Positions 19,281 to 27,526 of a stretch of 64,000 nucleotides of DNA are shown here, in pieces. A program made the position numbers and the translations under genes. Position 1 is the stretch's first letter; each line of letters opens with the position of its first letter. Where the stretch lies: NCBI RefSeq assembly GCF_002005465.1, contig NZ_CP014691.1:558001-622000 (forward strand), read 5' to 3'. The notes beneath the pieces are model-generated. The model was not told the origin of the DNA and searched no databases. It saw only the letters and a list, made by a program, of their open reading frames with translations. Source of the DNA: Neoasaia chiangmaiensis. Its GTDB lineage: Bacteria; Pseudomonadota; Alphaproteobacteria; Acetobacterales; Acetobacteraceae.

Positions 19281-20818
19281 CCGCGCGCTTTTATGTAACG
19301 ACCCCCATCTATTACGTTAACGGCGCACCGCATATCGGTCATGCCTATACGTCCGTAGCAGCGGACGTGCTGGCCCGCTTCCATCGGCTGGATGGGAAAG
19401 ACGTGCTGTTCCTTACGGGAACGGACGAACATGGCCAGAAAGTGGAGCAGGCCGCCCAGGTCGCCGGTGTGGAGACGCAGGCTTTCACTGACAGGATTTC
19501 CGCCGATTTCCGCACCATGGCGGATGCCATGGATATCTCCTACGACGACTACATCCGCACCACCGAGCCGCGCCACAAGGCCGCCGCGCAGGCCTTGTGG
19601 CAGAAGGTGGCCGATAACGGTCATATCTATCTCGGCGCTTACGAAGGCTGGTATGCCCTGCGCGACGAGTGCTTCTATAGCGAAGACGAACTGACGACGC
19701 GGCCGGACGGCACCAGGGTCGCACCGACCGGGGCACCGGTCGAATGGCTGCGCGAGCCGTCCTATTTCTTCCGGCTGTCGGCCTTTCAGGACCGGCTCCT
19801 TGAATTCTACGAGCAGCATCCCGCATTCATCGGGCCCGAATCCCGGCGACGCGAGATCGTCAGTTTCGTGAAGCAGGGGTTGCGCGACCTCTCCGTCAGT
19901 CGCACCAGCTTCAAATGGGGCATTCCCGTCCCGAACGACCCGGATCATGTCATGTATGTCTGGTTCGATGCCCTGGCCAACTATCTCTCAGCGCTCGGTT
20001 ATCCCGATATCGACGCGCCCAGAATGGCGTTCTGGCCTGCCAATGTGCATGTTGTCGGCAAGGACATCATCCGCTTCCATGCGGTTTACTGGCCGGCTTT
20101 CCTGATGGCCGCCGGCCTCGAGCTTCCCCGTACGGTGTTCTCGAACGGCTGGTGGACCATCGAAGGCGAGAAGATGAGCAAGTCGCTCGGCAACGTCGTG
20201 GACCCGCGGGATCTCGTGGCGGAGTTCGGTCTCGACCCCGTCCGCTATTTCCTGCTGCGTGAGGTGCCGTTCGGTGGCGACTCCGACCTGAACCGCCGCT
20301 CGCTCATCACACGCCTGAATGTGGAACTTGCCAACGATCTCGGCAATCTGGCCCAGCGCACCCTGTCCCAGATCGCCCGAAACTGCGGCGGTGTCCTGCC
20401 CGAAGCGGCGGTCCGGACCGAGGACGATCAGTCTCTTCTCGCGCAGGCATCCCTGTTGCCCGCGCTGCTTCGCGGGCAAATGGAACGCTTTGCCCTGACG
20501 GATGCGCTGGAAGAGGTATGGAAGGTCGTGCGCGCGTGCAACGCTTATATCGACCGTCAGGCGCCCTGGACGTTGCGTAAAACCGATCCCGACCGCATGG
20601 CGGCCGTCCTGCGGGTGCTGCACGATGCCATGCGTGTGATCGCCACTGTTCTCCAGCCCTACATGCCGGGTGCCATGGACAAGTTTCTCACCCAGCTTGG
20701 GATCGAGGCCGGGGAACGTCATTTCGCCGCACTCGAGACCCCGGTTCCCGCCGGTCGCACATTGCCGGCGCCGCAGGGGATCTTCCCGCGTTACGTCGAG
20801 CCGGAAAGTGCCGCCTGA
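19277..20818 (+). CDS. metG: Methionyl-tRNA synthetase
   Basis: A 513-residue class I synthetase that attaches methionine to both initiator and elongator tRNA-Met. The ATP-binding HIGH motif (PHIGHAY, near residue 15) and KMSKS motif (EGEKMSKSLGN) are clear, and an anticodon-binding helical domain ends the protein. There is no C-terminal tRNA-binding appendix, as is common in Alphaproteobacteria. ATG 19277 overlaps the holB stop. The tatD gene begins one base after its stop. Confidence 0.97.
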   Translation: MTARFYVTTPIYYVNGAPHIGHAYTSVAADVLARFHRLDGKDVLFLTGTDEHGQKVEQAAQVAGVETQAFTDRISADFRTMADAMDISYDDYIRTTEPRHKAAAQALWQKVADNGHIYLGAYEGWYALRDECFYSEDELTTRPDGTRVAPTGAPVEWLREPSYFFRLSAFQDRLLEFYEQHPAFIGPESRRREIVSFVKQGLRDLSVSRTSFKWGIPVPNDPDHVMYVWFDALANYLSALGYPDIDAPRMAFWPANVHVVGKDIIRFHAVYWPAFLMAAGLELPRTVFSNGWWTIEGEKMSKSLGNVVDPRDLVAEFGLDPVRYFLLREVPFGGDSDLNRRSLITRLNVELANDLGNLAQRTLSQIARNCGGVLPEAAVRTEDDQSLLAQASLLPALLRGQMERFALTDALEEVWKVVRACNAYIDRQAPWTLRKTDPDRMAAVLRVLHDAMRVIATVLQPYMPGAMDKFLTQLGIEAGERHFAALETPVPAGRTLPAPQGIFPRYVEPESAA

Positions 20819-20819
20819 C

Positions 20820-21599
20820 ATGCTGATCGACAGCCATTGCCATCTCGACCGCCTTGTAGATGTCGCCGCCGCGCTCGGCGAAGCGCGAGAGGCCGGTGTG
20901 GGCGGCATGGTGACGATTGGCACGCGACTGTCGCAGGCCGCGATCCAGATCGGCCTGACAGGCTATGACACACCGGAACTGCGTGTCTGGTGCGCGATCG
21001 GCACTCATCCCGATCATGCGCACGAGGAACCGTTGCCGACGGCCGAACGGATCGCGGAACTGACAACGCCATCACACGTGATCGGCATCGGTGAGTCCGG
21101 TCTCGATTATTTTCATGGTGGTGAGGATGTGCGGGACATACAGATCGCCAGCTTCCGTGCCCACATTACCGCCGCTCGCCTGACGGGTCTGCCGCTTGTC
21201 ATCCATGCCCGGCAGGCGGACGACGACGTCATGGCCATCCTGCGTGATGAGCACGAGAGAAACGGTGCATTCCCGTTTCTCCTGCACTGCTTTGCTTCCG
21301 GCACGGCGCTGGCGGAAACGGCGATCGACCTGGGCGGCTATATCAGCTTCTCCGGCTTGCTGACCTTTCCAAAATGCGACGAGATACGCGCCGTGGCGCG
21401 CCAGGTACCGCGCGAACGTCTTCTTGTCGAAACCGACAGCCCGTTTCTTGCCCCCGTGCCAAAAAGGGGCAAACCCAATATGCCGGGCTATGTCGCTTAC
21501 ACGGCAGCTCGGCTGGCCGCGGAACGGTCAATCGAACCACAGGCACTCGCAGACCTGACGACAGCCAATTTCTTCCGCCTGTTCCGGCGCGCCGCATGA
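20820..21599 (+). CDS. TatD-family metal-dependent hydrolase (DNase)
   Basis: A 259-residue TIM-barrel hydrolase. The first metal motif DSHCHLD begins at residue 4. The further metal sites are in GIGESGLDYFH, LPLVIHARQADDD, LLHCFASG and LVETDSPFL. TatD proteins are divalent-metal 3'-5' exonucleases or deoxyribonucleases, also linked to D-amino-acyl or repair roles. The family is usually found after metG, as here. The ATG is inside the tail of metG's TGACA context (start 20820). The following gene overlaps it by ATGA. Confidence 0.93.
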   Translation: MLIDSHCHLDRLVDVAAALGEAREAGVGGMVTIGTRLSQAAIQIGLTGYDTPELRVWCAIGTHPDHAHEEPLPTAERIAELTTPSHVIGIGESGLDYFHGGEDVRDIQIASFRAHITAARLTGLPLVIHARQADDDVMAILRDEHERNGAFPFLLHCFASGTALAETAIDLGGYISFSGLLTFPKCDEIRAVARQVPRERLLVETDSPFLAPVPKRGKPNMPGYVAYTAARLAAERSIEPQALADLTTANFFRLFRRAA

Positions 21600-22384
21600 A
21601 GGTGACGGTTCTCGGATGCGGCGGGTCCAGTGGCGTTCCCATGATCGGCGGAGCCGATGGCAGCGGTATCTGGGGTGCCTGCGATCCCGGGGAACCACGA
21701 AATCAGCGCACCCGATCGTCCATCGTCATGGAAAGCGACATCGGGCAGCGTCTGCTCGTCGATACAGGCCCCGATTTGCGAACCCAATTGCTCACCCAGC
21801 GCATCGGCGCCGTACACGGCGTGATCTACACACACGAACATAGCGACCATGTTGCGGGGCTGGACGAACTTCGCGCGATCAATCGCATGATCGACGCGCC
21901 GCTTCCGCTTTATGCGACGCGCACCGTCCTGTCCGAACTCGAATCACGCTTCGCCTATGCCTTTCGTCCGTGGAGCGGCACAGGGTTCTATCGCCCGGTT
22001 CTGGACGTGCATCCCGTCGAGGCGGGCGAGAACGTGCCGGTAGCTGGCATGGAATTGTCTCTCTTCGATCAGCGACACGGCCGCATCGCCTCTCTTGGAC
22101 TGCGATGCGGTGCCTTCGCGTATAGCACCGATGTCGAATACATGACCGATGATGTGCTGGACGGCCTGAAGGGGCTGGATACCTGGGTCGTCGGGTGCTT
22201 CCAGTATGAGCCACATGTCGCTCATGCCTGGCTCTCGCTCGTCCTGGAATGGCATGCGCGCATTCGTCCGCGGCGAACGGTACTCACGCATATGGGCCCG
22301 GACATGGATTATGAATCCCTGCGGCGGAATTTACCCGAAGGCGTTGAGCCGGCTTTCGACGGCATGATCCTCGAGATCCCATAA
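21596..22384 (+). CDS. MBL-fold phosphodiesterase, PhnP-like
   Basis: A 262-residue metallo-beta-lactamase-fold protein. The metal motif HEHSDH (YTHEHSDHVAGLDELRAIN) is present near residue 80, with a further Asp in STDVEYM and a C-terminal His in LTHMGPDMDY. The N-terminus VLGCGGSSGVPMIG matches the PhnP/ElaC-like branch, which hydrolyses cyclic phosphodiesters. No phn carbon-phosphorus lyase genes lie nearby, so a C-P lyase link is unlikely. Its physiological substrate is unknown. It overlaps tatD by 4 bases and closes the operon. Confidence 0.85.
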   Translation: MKVTVLGCGGSSGVPMIGGADGSGIWGACDPGEPRNQRTRSSIVMESDIGQRLLVDTGPDLRTQLLTQRIGAVHGVIYTHEHSDHVAGLDELRAINRMIDAPLPLYATRTVLSELESRFAYAFRPWSGTGFYRPVLDVHPVEAGENVPVAGMELSLFDQRHGRIASLGLRCGAFAYSTDVEYMTDDVLDGLKGLDTWVVGCFQYEPHVAHAWLSLVLEWHARIRPRRTVLTHMGPDMDYESLRRNLPEGVEPAFDGMILEIP

Positions 22385-22686
22385 CGCTCAGCGATTTGTG
22401 TCCGGTCGCACGTTTTTCTTGTTGAATCGCGAGCATTCAAAGGAATAGCCTCTGTCTTCCGGGGCCTTCCCGGCATTGAACATGGGCCGAATATCGAGCC
22501 ATTGCGCCAGGGGAGTTCGCCGACCCCGCAGGCCATTGCACTGCAAATAAACCGGTCCTCAGGCGTGTCCGGCCTTGAATTTGAAAATAATCCGTCGGCC
22601 GCCGTCATCCCTGCAGGATCGCCGTCTCCGGTCTCTCTGCATCATGGATGACGTGATCGGCACGTCGTTTACGGAGAGTGCTGTTC
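22385..22686. other. Non-coding region upstream of the prkA module
   Basis: 302 bases with no convincing gene. Only a short stem (CCGGG/CCCGG) and AT-rich patches near 22435 and 22580 are seen. A promoter for the prkA operon is expected here, but no clear -10/-35 pair or ECF-type GGAAC...CGTT pair was found. The ribosome site GGAGAG at 22673-22678 serves the downstream start. Confidence 0.6.
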
Positions 22687-24633
22687 ATGGGTTCGTTCTC
22701 TGACGTCTTCTCTTTGGCCACCACGATGCGCGACGAACGCCGGGAGACGGAAATGTCCCTGGCGTCCTTCCTCGATCTCTGCCGCGACGATCCTTCTTCC
22801 TACGCCAGCGCCGCCGAACGCATGTTGAAGGCAATCGGAGAGCCGGTGATGCTGGATTCCGCGCGCGATCCGCGCCTGAGCCGCATCTTCATGAACCGCA
22901 CTGTCCGGACCTATCCGGCCTTCGCCGATTTCTACGGTATGGAAGAAACCGTCGAGCAGATTGTCGGCTTCTTCCGGCATGCGGCGCAGGGGCTGGAGGA
23001 ACGCAAACAGATCCTCTATCTGCTCGGCCCCGTTGGCGGCGGAAAGTCCTCGCTTGGCGAGCGCCTGAAATCCCTGATGGAGCGGGAACCCATCTATGTT
23101 CTGAAAGCCGGGAAGCACCTCAGCCCGGTTTTCGAAAGCCCCTTGGGCATATTCGATCCGGACCGGATGGGCAGCGCACTCCAGGAGCAATATGGCATTC
23201 CGCGCCGTGTGTTGACCGGCATCGCCAGCCCATGGGCCATGAAGCGTCTGGAAGAGTTCGACGGCGACCTTTCGCGCTTCACGGTCGTGAAGCTGCACCC
23301 GTCCAAATTGCGTCAGATCGCGGTCGCCAAGACGGAACCGGGCGACGACAACAATCAGGATGTCTCGGCCCTTGTCGGCAAGGTGGACATCCGGCAGCTT
23401 GAACACTTCAGCCAGAACGATCCCGACGCCTATGGTTTCTCCGGCGGTCTGAATCGCGCCAATCAGGGCATTCTCGAGTTCGTGGAGATGTTCAAGGCGC
23501 CCATCAAGATGCTCCATCCGCTGCTGACCGCAACGCAGGAGGGCAACTACATCGGCACGGAGAACATCGGCGCCATCCCCTTCACGGGCGTCATTCTTGC
23601 GCATTCGAATGAAGCGGAATGGCAGACATTCCGCAACAATCGCACCAACGAGGCTTTTCTGGATCGCGTTTGCGTCATCAAGGTGCCTTATTGCCTCCGC
23701 GCCAGCGAGGAAGCGAAAATCTATGAGAAGCTGATCCAGTCGTCGGCGCTCGGTGCCGCGCCGTGCGCGCCCAACACGCTGGAGATGCTGGCGCGCTTCG
23801 CCGTGTTGTCGCGCCTGAAACCTCATCCCAATTCATCGCAGTTCGCCAAGATGCGTGTCTATGACGGCGAAAACATTCGCGAGACGGATCCCAAGGCGCG
23901 CGCGATGCAGGAGTATCGCGACGCGGCGGGCGTCGACGAAGGCATGGACGGCATTTCCACGCGTTTCGCCTACAAGGTCCTGTCGGCAACATTCAATTAC
24001 GACGCCAGTGAAATCTCCGCCGATCCGGTTCACCTGATGTATGTGCTGGAACAGGCAGTCCGCCGGGAGCAGTTCCCGGCAGAGGTCGAAGCCAACTATC
24101 TGGCGGTGCTTAAATCCGAACTGGCGCGCCGGTATGCGGATTTCCTCGGCCACGAAATTCAGAAGGCCTATCTGGAAAGCTATAACGACTACGGCCAGAA
24201 CCTCTTCGACCGATATCTCGACTACGCGGATGCATGGATCGAGGATCAGGACTTCAAGGATCCGGACACCGGGCAACTGCTGAATCGCGATCTTCTGAAT
24301 GCCGAACTCACCAAGATCGAAAAGCCGGCGGGCATCGCCAACCCCAAGGACTTCCGGAACGAGGTCGTCAAATTCTCCTTGCGGGCGAGGGCGGCCAATG
24401 GCGGGCGCAATCCGTCCTGGACCAGCTACGAGAAGATTCGCGATGTGATCGAGAAGCGCATGTTCAGCCAGGTGGAGGATCTTCTTCCAGTCATCAGTTT
24501 CGGCTCGAAGAAGGATAGCGAAAGCGAGCGCAAGCATGGCGAATTCGTCGAACGCATGGTGGCGCGCGGCTACACGGAGCGGCAGGTGAGGCGGCTGGTG
24601 GAATGGTACATGCGTGTCAAGCAATCCGCTTGA
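22687..24633 (+). CDS. prkA: PrkA-family serine protein kinase (YeaG-like)
   Basis: A 648-residue AAA-type kinase. The N-terminal PrkA AAA domain has a Walker A loop GPVGGGKSSLGERLK near residue 123. The central part includes the PrkA signature region IPRRVLTGIASPWAMKRL, and the C-terminal PrkA domain begins near residue 400. PrkA/YeaG proteins act in stress, nitrogen starvation and, in Bacillus, sporulation. ATG 22687 is chosen over the GTG 22678 because GGAGAG lies 8 bases upstream. Together with the next two genes it forms the widespread prkA-yeaH-spoVR module, found in non-spore formers too. Confidence 0.93.
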   Translation: MGSFSDVFSLATTMRDERRETEMSLASFLDLCRDDPSSYASAAERMLKAIGEPVMLDSARDPRLSRIFMNRTVRTYPAFADFYGMEETVEQIVGFFRHAAQGLEERKQILYLLGPVGGGKSSLGERLKSLMEREPIYVLKAGKHLSPVFESPLGIFDPDRMGSALQEQYGIPRRVLTGIASPWAMKRLEEFDGDLSRFTVVKLHPSKLRQIAVAKTEPGDDNNQDVSALVGKVDIRQLEHFSQNDPDAYGFSGGLNRANQGILEFVEMFKAPIKMLHPLLTATQEGNYIGTENIGAIPFTGVILAHSNEAEWQTFRNNRTNEAFLDRVCVIKVPYCLRASEEAKIYEKLIQSSALGAAPCAPNTLEMLARFAVLSRLKPHPNSSQFAKMRVYDGENIRETDPKARAMQEYRDAAGVDEGMDGISTRFAYKVLSATFNYDASEISADPVHLMYVLEQAVRREQFPAEVEANYLAVLKSELARRYADFLGHEIQKAYLESYNDYGQNLFDRYLDYADAWIEDQDFKDPDTGQLLNRDLLNAELTKIEKPAGIANPKDFRNEVVKFSLRARAANGGRNPSWTSYEKIRDVIEKRMFSQVEDLLPVISFGSKKDSESERKHGEFVERMVARGYTERQVRRLVEWYMRVKQSA

Positions 24634-24683
24634 TTGCTGTCACGTTCCCACCAAGTAAGATAGCCGACGATGGAGCGTAGTCC

Positions 24684-25997
24684 ATGGACATCATCGACAG
24701 GCGTCCGAACCCGCACGGTAAGAACACCGAAAACAGGCGCCGGGTTCTCGCGCGAGCACGCGACGCCGTACAAAGCGCCGTGCGCACGGCGGTCGCGCAG
24801 GGACGCATCCGCGACAGCGCGCAGGGCAATACCGTCTCGATCCCGGCAGACGTTCTGCATGAGCCAAGCTTTCATCGCACCTTCGAACAGGGCGTTCGCC
24901 AGTTCGTGCTTCCCGGCAACAGGGAGTTCATACCCGGCGATCGCCTTCGTCGGCCGCCGGGCGGCGCCGGCGGTCAAGGTGGCGGGGAGGGCGATGCCAG
25001 TGCCGAAGGGGGAGGTGAGGACTCCTACCGGTTCATCCTGTCGCGCGATGAGTTTCTCGATCTTTTCTTTGACGATCTGGAACTGCCGGATCTGGTCCGG
25101 CGCGAGATTGCCGTCGCGACGACAACCGCCAACCAGCGCGCCGGACTAAGTTCCGAAGGGTCGCCGTCGCAGGTCGATCTGGGCCGGACGATGCGCCATT
25201 CGATCGCGCGACGGATCGGACTGAAGCGCCCGAAGCCCGAACGCCTGCGTGAAATCGAAGCTGAAATAGAGGAGCTGGAGGCGAAAAAGCCGCTGCTTCC
25301 TGAGGCTTACGAGCGCTTACAGCTATTGCGGGACGAACGGAGCGCGCTCAGCCAGCGGTTAGGGCGAATCCCCTGGGTCGATCCGGTGGACCTGCGCTAC
25401 CGGCGCTTCACGCCGACACCCAAACCCACCACGCAGGCGGTCATGTTCTGCATCATGGACGTCTCTGGCTCCATGACCGAAAAAATGAAGGAACTGGGCA
25501 AGCAGTTCTTCCTGCTTCTGCACGTCTTCCTCGAACGTCGATACGAAAAACTCGATATCGTCTTCATCCGCCATGCCGAAACGGCAGAGGAGGTCGACGA
25601 AGAAACGTTTTTCACCGATCCCCGAACCGGCGGCACTGTCGTCTCCACGGCGCTCGAACTGATGATCGACATCCAGAAAGCGCGGTATCCTGTGAGCCAG
25701 TGGAATATCTACGCGGCGCAGGCATCGGACGGCGATAACATCGCCTCGGACACACCCATCGTGGCATCGCAGATGGCTGAGCGCATTCTGCCGATCATCC
25801 AGTATTTCGCCTATATCGAAGTTGCCGGATCAGGCGCAATCATTCGTAACGACAGCGATCTGTGGCGTTGCTACCGCGGCCTTGCCGAGACACATGCGCA
25901 ACTGGCCATTCGCCAGGTAAGGGACCGGCGCGAAATCTTTCCCGTTTTCCGGGATCTGTTCGCAAGGCGCGAAGCCGAACAGTTGAGAGGTGCGTGA
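24684..25997 (+). CDS. YeaH/YhbH-family DUF444 protein with VWA-like domain
   Basis: A 437-residue DUF444 protein. It starts with a basic helix-rich region, then a Gly-rich linker (GGAGGQGGGEGDASAEGGGE) near residue 100, a coiled region near 180-220, and a C-terminal von Willebrand factor A-like fold with MIDAS-type motif DVSGSMTEKMKELGKQFF near residue 256. The family occurs with PrkA and SpoVR and may scaffold them, but no enzymatic role is known. ATG 24684 lies 50 bases after prkA, and its stop overlaps the next ATG by one base. Confidence 0.92.
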   Translation: MDIIDRRPNPHGKNTENRRRVLARARDAVQSAVRTAVAQGRIRDSAQGNTVSIPADVLHEPSFHRTFEQGVRQFVLPGNREFIPGDRLRRPPGGAGGQGGGEGDASAEGGGEDSYRFILSRDEFLDLFFDDLELPDLVRREIAVATTTANQRAGLSSEGSPSQVDLGRTMRHSIARRIGLKRPKPERLREIEAEIEELEAKKPLLPEAYERLQLLRDERSALSQRLGRIPWVDPVDLRYRRFTPTPKPTTQAVMFCIMDVSGSMTEKMKELGKQFFLLLHVFLERRYEKLDIVFIRHAETAEEVDEETFFTDPRTGGTVVSTALELMIDIQKARYPVSQWNIYAAQASDGDNIASDTPIVASQMAERILPIIQYFAYIEVAGSGAIIRNDSDLWRCYRGLAETHAQLAIRQVRDRREIFPVFRDLFARREAEQLRGA

Positions 25998-27493
25998 TGC
26001 TTTACACCGGAACCGACTGGAATTTCAGCATTTTGCGAAACTGCTTTCATGCAATCGAGGAGATCGCGCACAACGAACTCGGATTGGAGACATTCCCCAA
26101 TCGGATCGAGGTCATTACGTCGGAACAGATGCTGGACGTCTACACGTCACATGGCATGCCGATCAGCTACCCCCACTGGTCGGCGGGCAAACGCTTCGTG
26201 GGTCATGAAAACAGCTACAAGCGTGGCTTGATGGGACTGGCCTACGAGGTCGTAATCAATTCCAGCCCCTGCATCAGTTATCTGATGGAGGAGAATACTG
26301 CTACAATGCAGGCACTGGTCATCGCGCATGCTGCCTTCGGCCATAATCATTTCTTCCGGAACAACCGACTTTTCCGCGAATGGACCGACCCCACCCAAAT
26401 TCTCAATTATCTTGAATTTGCAAGATCCTACATCGCAAAATGCGAGGAACGGCATGGCATTCGGGCCGTCGAGCGAATTCTGGATGCCGCGCATGCCTTG
26501 CAAGGGCAGGGTGTCGATCGACATACAGGCAACAAGCGACTGGATCTAAAGCATGAGTCCGATCGCGCCCGTGAACGGCGTGCCTATGAGGATAGTCAGT
26601 ATAACGATCTCTGGCGGACATTGCCCGACCGGGAGACGGATGCGGGCGACGTCAACAGCAGCGATACGCCAATCGGCGGTCTTCCCGAAGAAAATATCCT
26701 TTATTTTCTGGAGAAAAACGCCCCACGTCTCGAGCCGTGGGAACGGGAGATCATCCGTATCGTTCGGCTTACCGCCCAATATTTCTACCCGCAGCCGCAG
26801 GTCAAGGTCATGAACGAAGGCTGCGCCACGTGGACGCATAACGTCATCATGCACCGGCTCCATCGGAAGGGACTGATCGATGACGCCGCCATCATGGAGG
26901 CGATTCATTCCACGACGAACGTCATCACCCAGCGTGGTTTCGATGAGGGCGGGGGACCCGGTTTCAATCCCTATGCGCTTGGCCTGGCCATGATGAACGA
27001 TATTGCACGTATGTGCGAAAACCCGACAGAGGAAGACCGCGCATGGTTTCCGGATTTCGCCGGCAATGGCGATCCGCTGGGAACATTGAAGCACGCTTGG
27101 GCGGAATATCGGGATGAGAGCTTCATTCAGCAATTTCTGTCGCCGAAAGTCATTCGGGATTTGCGGTTGTTCCGTCTGACTGATGACGCTGCGCAACCAT
27201 ATCTGCTGGTCGATGCCATCCATAATGAGGCTGGTTATCGCGATATCCGGCGATCAGTCGCAGCCTCCTATGATCCGGGTAGCCTTGCGGAAGAGATCGA
27301 GATCGTCGGTGTCGATTTGAGCGGTGATCGTGTCCTTAAGCTCGAACATCGCACACGACCCGGCCATTTGTTGCATGCGACAGATGCGCGGCTCACGCTC
27401 GGTCATCTGGCGGAACTCTGGGGTTACGGCGTGGCGCTCAAGGAGATCGACAGCCAGAATGGCAAGGAACTCGCCAGTTATCATGCTGCATAG
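25997..27493 (+). CDS. SpoVR family protein (YcgB-like)
   Basis: A 498-residue protein matching the SpoVR family from start to end (YTGTDWNFSIL near the N-terminus, NEGCATWTHNVIMHRL and NPYALGLAMMNDIARM in the middle). Histidine-rich segments (AHAAFGHNHFFRNN, ATWTHN) suggest a metal site. In Bacillus SpoVR is needed for spore cortex formation; in Proteobacteria it goes with PrkA and DUF444 in stress survival. The ATG overlaps the previous TGA by one base, so the three are one operon. A 9-bp hairpin follows the stop at 27500-27526. Confidence 0.92.
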   Translation: MLYTGTDWNFSILRNCFHAIEEIAHNELGLETFPNRIEVITSEQMLDVYTSHGMPISYPHWSAGKRFVGHENSYKRGLMGLAYEVVINSSPCISYLMEENTATMQALVIAHAAFGHNHFFRNNRLFREWTDPTQILNYLEFARSYIAKCEERHGIRAVERILDAAHALQGQGVDRHTGNKRLDLKHESDRARERRAYEDSQYNDLWRTLPDRETDAGDVNSSDTPIGGLPEENILYFLEKNAPRLEPWEREIIRIVRLTAQYFYPQPQVKVMNEGCATWTHNVIMHRLHRKGLIDDAAIMEAIHSTTNVITQRGFDEGGGPGFNPYALGLAMMNDIARMCENPTEEDRAWFPDFAGNGDPLGTLKHAWAEYRDESFIQQFLSPKVIRDLRLFRLTDDAAQPYLLVDAIHNEAGYRDIRRSVAASYDPGSLAEEIEIVGVDLSGDRVLKLEHRTRPGHLLHATDARLTLGHLAELWGYGVALKEIDSQNGKELASYHAA

Positions 27494-27499
27494 ACTGAC

Positions 27500-27526
27500 T
27501 GGCGCGCGCGGCATCGTCGCGCGCCA
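27500..27526 (+). terminator. Hairpin after spoVR, possible terminator
   Basis: TGGCGCGCG and CGCGCGCCA form a perfect 9-bp, very GC-rich stem with a 9-base loop, 7 bases after the spoVR stop. No T-run follows (CTCCGATAAG), so this could be Rho-assisted or a pause and stability element. Confidence 0.45.

Follow-up and report, generated by a model that had tools for sequence, protein, structure and literature searches.

A prkA-yeaH-spoVR operon in the acetic acid bacterium Neoasaia chiangmaiensis, with a predicted zincin-like fold for SpoVR

Introduction

Among the closest known systems to the locus described here is the prkA-VWA-spoVR operon of Rhizobium etli (CH02817-CH02815), and the same three families occur in Escherichia coli as yeaGH and ycgB, a triplet published as co-conserved in 2007 (PMC2375023). 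In E. coli, yeaG, yeaH and double mutants behave alike, the two single mutants in nitrogen starvation (PMC4664914). Stress genes of these three families are widespread.

Here, we analyze the prkA-yeaH-spoVR operon in a 64,000-nucleotide window of Neoasaia chiangmaiensis (contig NZ_CP014691.1, positions 558,001 to 622,000), whose genome is a single 3.41-Mb contig. The operon type is already known, and is reported here in a new host. A first-pass annotation, made from the sequence alone, had placed the DNA in an acetic acid bacterium, a fair assignment given that the best named matches of its SpoVR are from Asaia bogorensis (80%) and two Acetobacter (72%). The part most deserving of attention is a structural prediction, that SpoVR probably has a zincin fold with a metal site but lacks the usual catalytic base. 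The candidate site of SpoVR (H111, H116, E274), the metal ion-dependent adhesion site (MIDAS) of YeaH and the Walker A motif of PrkA make the old question of what the three proteins do together testable.

Results and Discussion

The three genes are inherited as one unit

All three genes lie on the forward strand with intact reading frames. The prkA gene opens with an ATG at 22687 and its stop codon closes at 24633; 50 bases separate it from yeaH, and spoVR starts with an ATG at 25997, within a TGATG that gives a 1-base overlap with yeaH. Coordinates read from the sequence bear out the gene ends, the 50-base gap and the 1-base overlap of the first-pass annotation, and its assignment to the PrkA, DUF444 and SpoVR families agrees with both Pfam and NCBIfam at scores far above cut-off. 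Its statement that the families travel together turned out to be too cautious. When 249 genomes of the phylum were each searched with the SpoVR, DUF444 and AAA_PrkA profiles, SpoVR was found in 87, DUF444 in 87 and a strong AAA_PrkA match (E 4.5e-93 or better) in 87, and the three sets of genomes are identical, a grouping far from chance. Weaker AAA_PrkA matches (E 2e-7 and worse) span about 50-70 profile positions inside larger open frames; these are probably Lon, a guess made because the window PrkA also matched two Lon entries among solved structures.

YeaH and SpoVR are adjacent in 78 of the 87 genomes, and in one the two are split between contigs, SpoVR standing at the start of its own. 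The other eight, all of one family (f40, presumably Enterobacteriaceae with ycgB as its spoVR), retain all three families with YeaH and SpoVR more than 8 kb apart or on separate contigs, unlike the N. chiangmaiensis locus, where all three sit in one operon. A second collection held 80 loci, of which 75 have at least part of all three genes (PrkA is cut off in five of these), and order and strand are the same in all 75. The remaining five lack prkA in the available stretch, and four of them stop at or near contig ends. With start codons chosen automatically, 38 of the 80 loci show a YeaH-SpoVR overlap of 1, 4 or 8 bases. In a sample of 150 genomes of the host's family, 81 were listed with a PrkA match, six of them only through matches to other proteins at E >1e-4, which leaves 75 of 150. 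We conclude that the three genes are co-inherited as one unit, in line with the published triplet (PMC2375023) and the published operon (PMC3188799).

The fifth of the loci without prkA, that of Parvularcula mediterranea (L181), has no PrkA in the 3.7 kb 5' of YeaH or elsewhere in its 13.5-kb locus, and about 900 bases lie between its YeaH and SpoVR. In another genome (G198, L196:719-2301), SpoVR is broken over two overlapping frames next to full-length PrkA and YeaH; the gene may have decayed recently into a pseudogene, or else the break is an error of sequencing.

SpoVR is predicted to be a zincin-like protein with a candidate metal site

SpoVR belongs to its family without ambiguity (Pfam SpoVR 7.5e-158, SpoVR_C 6.2e-17). 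The first-pass description of it as spore-cortex-like is uninformative about fold, and the fold predicted here is zincin-like. An AlphaFold2 model, built with 54 of the 79 available sequences (those omitted, picked by eye, were mostly near-duplicates), reached a mean predicted local distance difference test score (pLDDT) of 80.3 and a predicted template modeling score (pTM) of 0.79, with residues 50-68, 79-81 and 201-225 poor. When 608 Foldseek candidates were re-aligned to this model with VIA, 48 of the 50 listed matches were zincin peptidases, including M1 aminopeptidases, leukotriene A4 hydrolase, M32 carboxypeptidases, angiotensin-converting enzyme (ACE), ACE2, dipeptidyl peptidase III (DPP III) and MATCAP. 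The top match is a "putative lipoprotein" (Z 12.3, root-mean-square deviation 3.9 over 200 residues), and the other non-zincin row is a "putative hydrolase" (Z 8.8). The model places a strand at 92-97, a helix at 102-122 that carries both H111 and H116, and a helix at 270-290 with N273-E274-G275 near its start, which is the order expected of a zincin: strand, two-His helix, Glu helix.

The candidate ligands are strongly conserved among 112 distinct SpoVR sequences, a sample skewed toward Alphaproteobacteria. H-x4-H occurs in 103 (74 of them HAAFGH, and one with an unread residue there), and nine divergent sequences have H-x3-H instead (HVLGH, HVYGH, HVMAH, HVLAH or HATGH), while [NH]EG-x-A is present in all 112. 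The HxxxGH spacing resembles that of DPP III. None of the 112, one of which has an unread residue, carries Glu or Asp between the two His, and so none has the HEXXH or HEXXGH motif of an active zincin peptidase. Among 90 aligned SpoVR proteins, 13 positions are invariant (P55, W61, G64, E84, H111, H116, E274, G275, A277, N324, P325, Y326 and G329). A profile comparison with 20 M1 peptidases gave two local matches, which fall on the HEXXH and NEG motifs; the higher score (24.5, on NEG) exceeds all of 120 column shuffles (maximum 20.6).

Several results count against a zincin assignment. Foldseek itself returned no significant match for the SpoVR model (best E 0.16), the VIA list consists of weak Foldseek hits that were re-aligned, and helical models easily reach middling Z scores. 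The 50 rows are not 50 independent proteins, 29 of them being ACE or ACE2. In the M1 comparison the profile probabilities are low (25% and 2%), the second score (18.9, on HEXXH) lies below the 95% level of the shuffles (19.1), and seven of the 120 shuffles also hit both motifs; a comparison with M32 gave nothing meaningful. Among the papers listed by a literature search on SpoVR and zincins, none dealt with SpoVR, and a published account of the link may well exist. Our prediction from the model and from conservation is that SpoVR probably adopts a zincin fold with a metal site and is without the usual catalytic base.

PrkA and YeaH carry intact AAA+ and MIDAS signatures

The window PrkA consists of an AAA_PrkA domain (Pfam, 1.3e-174) followed by the PrkA C-terminal domain (6e-73), and it matches NCBIfam equivalog NF011999 with 1220.9 bits (cut-off 576). 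A solved relative is 9xip (E 1e-54). A motif scan found Walker A (GPVGGGKS) at residue 114, and neither HRD nor DFG, the motifs of a Hanks-type serine kinase, anywhere in the 648 residues. Across 78 sequences, phage and Bacillus-type members included, 44 positions are invariant, 37 in the AAA+ half (K120, E264, E267, N308 and R327 are among the invariant residues) and seven in the C-terminal half. We read PrkA as an ATP-driven motor.

YeaH is a DUF444 protein (Pfam 9.5e-156) with a VWA domain. Its AlphaFold2 model, built with 49 of 75 available sequences under the same by-eye removal of what were mostly near-duplicates, is confident over the VWA domain and poor in the N-terminal half (mean pLDDT 71.0, pTM 0.58). 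It matches solved VWA domains with Z up to 16.3, including Rea1-MIDAS (14.8), which belongs to an AAA+ protein. The MIDAS residues (DxSxS-T-D) D259, S261, S263, T318 and D349 are invariant in 82 sequences; the first-pass annotation had likewise noted a VWA-like MIDAS motif. Sequence searches found no solved homologue for YeaH.

A tentative model of one machine, and its rivals

We tentatively propose that the three products form a single machine, induced by starvation or stress, in which the parts depend on one another, a reading that we consider possible rather than established. PrkA would be the AAA+ motor, presumably acting as a ring and in complex with its partners. YeaH would be a VWA adaptor whose MIDAS-bound metal may grip an acidic residue of the target and so couple it to the motor. 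SpoVR would be both target and effector, a zincin fold with a two-His, one-Glu site that would bind metal, lacking the catalytic Glu of HEXXH. ATP-driven remodeling by PrkA-YeaH might then load, open or switch the SpoVR metal site. This mechanism is drawn by analogy with the layout of NorQ-NorD (AAA+ motor plus MIDAS-bearing VWA), a pair that powers the loading of iron into nitric oxide reductase (PMC9976466; PMC13036017). If true, it would extend AAA+/VWA remodeling to a general starvation response and would give a reason for the lack, among the 249 genomes compared, of any with just one or two of the three genes.

Not all evidence agrees with this proposal. At E 0.001 the window PrkA matches only AAA_PrkA and PrkA in Pfam, and not MoxR, so the machine claim concerns a way of working and not family membership. 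As to the role in starvation or acid stress put forward in the first-pass annotation, starvation or stationary-phase expression is documented for relatives (R. etli, PMC3188799; E. coli, PMC4664914), but a simple phenotype is not assured, as an R. etli prkA mutant had no clear stress phenotype (PMC3188799). Three published points on PrkA itself, the K426A mutant of E. coli YeaG, its interpretation by its authors and the likeness of Bacillus anthracis PrkA to YME1, also weigh on the unfavorable side and are best considered with the alternatives that they support.

Under one alternative, which we consider unlikely, PrkA is a signaling serine kinase (or a protease) acting on other proteins in starvation, with YeaH and SpoVR as scaffold and substrate and no metal step. 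Pfam names the C-terminal half the PrkA kinase domain, and the E. coli report cites in vitro kinase activity of recombinant YeaG; in it, K426A in the C-terminal domain, present at 100% of the wild-type level, and a YeaG truncated after the AAA+ half both fail to complement, and the authors take the K426A failure as a need for kinase activity (PMC4664914). Two AAA+ mutants fail too in the same work, however, and a failed complementation says that a residue is needed and nothing of what the residue does. Because AAA+ mutants, K426A and C-terminal truncation all fail, both halves of PrkA matter. The missing HRD and DFG and the crowding of invariant positions in the AAA+ half speak against a kinase, as does purified B. 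anthracis PrkA, which had negligible kinase and protease activity (PMC13001217). Of the first-pass term AAA kinase, then, the AAA+ part stands on Walker A and AAA_PrkA, whereas the kinase part is doubtful, the failures of K426A and the truncation notwithstanding.

The other two alternatives concern SpoVR. It might be an active hydrolase, either a peptidase or an amidase, whose catalytic base is an unusual one (for instance E84 or H281) and to which PrkA-YeaH feeds unfolded substrate in the manner of an AAA+ protease with a separate peptidase. The invariance of the candidate ligands and of E84 in 90 sequences goes beyond the needs of a dead scaffold, and an AlphaFold 3 model likened B. anthracis PrkA to clade III proteins such as YME1 (PMC13001217); yet no sequence of the 112 has an acidic residue between the two His, and two phage members (L199 and TMA) have Asp in place of H281, which makes this route in our judgment rather improbable. 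A lower probability still attaches to the idea that SpoVR is unrelated to zincins, the match reflecting a common helical arrangement and the His and Glu serving, for example, nucleotide or RNA binding. It would fit the lack of a significant Foldseek match and of any solved SpoVR homologue found by sequence; Pfam, too, assigned no peptidase family to any of six SpoVR proteins with the threshold relaxed to E 10. Against it, all but two of the 50 listed VIA matches belong to one superfamily, and the strand, the helix with both His and the helix with E274 come in the expected order. The three-part machine with a zincin-like SpoVR remains our tentative preference.

Phages carry the set

Of 50,697 phage records, searches with PrkA and YeaH pick out one and the same set of 16: 11 of Thermus phage (some of them duplicate entries of one phage), four from uncultured phages with sizes of 595-642 kb and one, a doubtful case, from an Enterobacter phage. 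The full set is present in at least eight of the 16, namely LR745206 (L198), LR756511 (L199), phiLo (L200), TMA (L203), Lalka8 (L204), MN1 (L205), LR756502 and LR756504, with seven of the 16 covered for SpoVR by tblastn only. SpoVR of LR756502 lies about 243 kb away from PrkA and YeaH. In the Enterobacter phage record (MN688132), YeaG and YeaH occupy the extreme end, SpoVR is neither annotated nor detected by search, and we treat the pair as a probable host flank. In Lalka8 the set is bordered on one side by the gene for the minor head protein and on the other, beyond two small genes, by TerL. TMA encodes between SpoVR and PrkA a "hypothetical" protein of about 616 residues (L203:3763-5613), possibly a fourth partner or a phage addition.

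We regard as doubtful a broader version of the proposed machine, in which a non-MoxR, ATP-driven, metal-handling device with SpoVR as its obligate client, a Glu-less zincin turned metal-dependent stress effector, would be old enough for bacteria, haloarchaea and phages to have it in common, the phages carrying the set to control or replace that of the host.

A conserved element upstream of prkA

The gene 5' of prkA finishes at 22384, which confirms the 302-base upstream region described in the first-pass annotation. The further claim that this region has no recognizable standard promoter holds in part: a simple sigma-70 scan of the 302 bases found nothing, but a promoter-like element, GTTGAA-N17-AATAGCCT, is conserved there. 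It could be parsed as a -35 TTGAAT (22422-22427), an 18-base spacer and a -10 TAGCCT (22446-22451). As a sigma-70-type promoter this would be poor but possible, and the leader would measure about 230 bases. In Alphaproteobacteria, many sigma-70 promoters deviate from the E. coli consensus (PMC8407463).

The element was compared between this genome and its 15 nearest relatives by PrkA among the 150 sampled family genomes (L003-L017). It lies 5' of prkA in 16 of 16, in 12 exactly and in four with one mismatch, starting 207-332 bases before the prkA start; of the 31 columns, 12 are uniform across 15 or all 16 of the sites, and the spacer is variable. All 12 exact matches in these genomes sit at prkA, and one-mismatch matches elsewhere number 34, some recurring near-identically between genomes, against 14 in all for a reversed control pattern. 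A pattern search of the 330 bases before prkA did not find it in any of 14 family loci that are more distant, three of which (L018, L021 and L030) score above 95% of shuffles and below the best shuffle. The element, sometimes as a variant, is also present in four of five loci from named Acetobacteraceae (L112-L116), the exception being Acidisoma (L116); two of those four share their site with other sampled genomes, perhaps of the same species.

The first-pass annotation thought an alternative sigma factor plausible; one with a large regulon is not suggested by the results. The element has a single match in this genome, in strict and relaxed forms alike, and is unlike the site of a large alternative-sigma regulon for that reason; we rejected such a regulon on this count and on the restriction of the exact matches to prkA. 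EcfG-type control of this copy was rejected, as no GGAAC-N15-18-CGTT occurs upstream here or in the 330 bases examined in the 15 relatives, and so was sigma-54 control, the best match to TGGCAC-N5-TTGC(A/T) being 7 of 12 positions, equaled in 48 of 100 shuffles. Recognized by eye, the genome encodes RpoD, a probable RpoH and a further sigma factor resembling the extracytoplasmic function type; RpoN is present as well. A PhyR-like gene lies beside an EcfG-like sigma gene (G000:C1, about 455,900-456,750; L034/L035, by eye), and the alphaproteobacterial general stress system appears to be present in this acetic acid bacterium. EcfG-type sites stand 5' of prkA in 16 of 70 other loci, a raw count with no chance control. 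Half of the 16 share the Bradyrhizobium position at about -56 to -60 (L131, L133, L136-L138, L143, L147 and L151), unlike acetic acid bacteria. The module seems to be wired to different regulators in different lineages.

Rfam gave no match on 22300-22760, and the predicted RNA folds of two stretches of the leader were unremarkable (z 0.80 and -1.32).

Neighboring genes and coordinates

Immediately 5' of prkA lies a metallo-beta-lactamase-fold gene, and a TatD-like gene is also upstream (20800-22384 for the region). Both are directly upstream in all 15 nearest relatives as well, and the position of the module is old in the clade on that ground. The T-run of the terminator-like stem-loop that follows the metallo-beta-lactamase-fold gene stops just 5' of the promoter-like element; five terminator-like sites were found in the region against a shuffle mean of 4.9, no excess. 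The hairpin beyond spoVR (61-nt fold -24.7 kcal/mol, z -1.70, with 11 of 200 shuffles as stable) may weakly suggest the end of the operon transcript, and a peptide-transporter-like gene follows it. Features are collected in Table 1.

Table 1. Features of the prkA-yeaH-spoVR locus, in window positions
Feature	Position	Strand	Details and source
prkA, 648 aa	22687..24633	+	AAA+ ATPase domain residues 23-383, PrkA C-terminal domain 387-640; Pfam, NCBIfam
yeaH / DUF444, 437 aa	24684..25997	+	poorly predicted N-terminal half including helical pair; VWA ~250-430 with complete MIDAS
spoVR, 498 aa	25997..27493	+	predicted zincin-like fold; H111-x4-H116, N273-E274-G275-x-A277
Likely ribosome binding site GGAGAG	22673..22678	+	8 bases 5' of prkA ATG; read from sequence
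Terminator-like stem-loop and T-run after metallo-beta-lactamase-fold gene	22391..22419	+	consensus scan only
Conserved promoter-like element	22421..22451	+	comparison of 16 genomes
GC-rich hairpin without T-run, directly 3' of spoVR	27500..27526	+	RNA fold, weak

Comparison with known systems

The R. etli operon, one of the closest known systems, has its prkA under RpoN1 and (p)ppGpp, whereas the N. chiangmaiensis copy has no convincing sigma-54 site and an element found in its nearest relatives only. In layout, the module likewise resembles the MoxR AAA+/VWA pairs such as NorQ-NorD, in which an AAA+ ATPase and a VWA protein with a DxSxS-T-D MIDAS act with a dedicated partner. It differs in that PrkA belongs to another AAA family, one with a C-terminal domain of its own, and that the presumed client is soluble and zincin-like. 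With the gluzincins (M1, M32 and M49 DPP III), SpoVR would, by prediction, share the fold, and it has the HxxxH/HxxxxH and NEGxA motifs in the same order, but it departs from them in having no Glu or Asp between the two His and about 150 residues between the two motifs.

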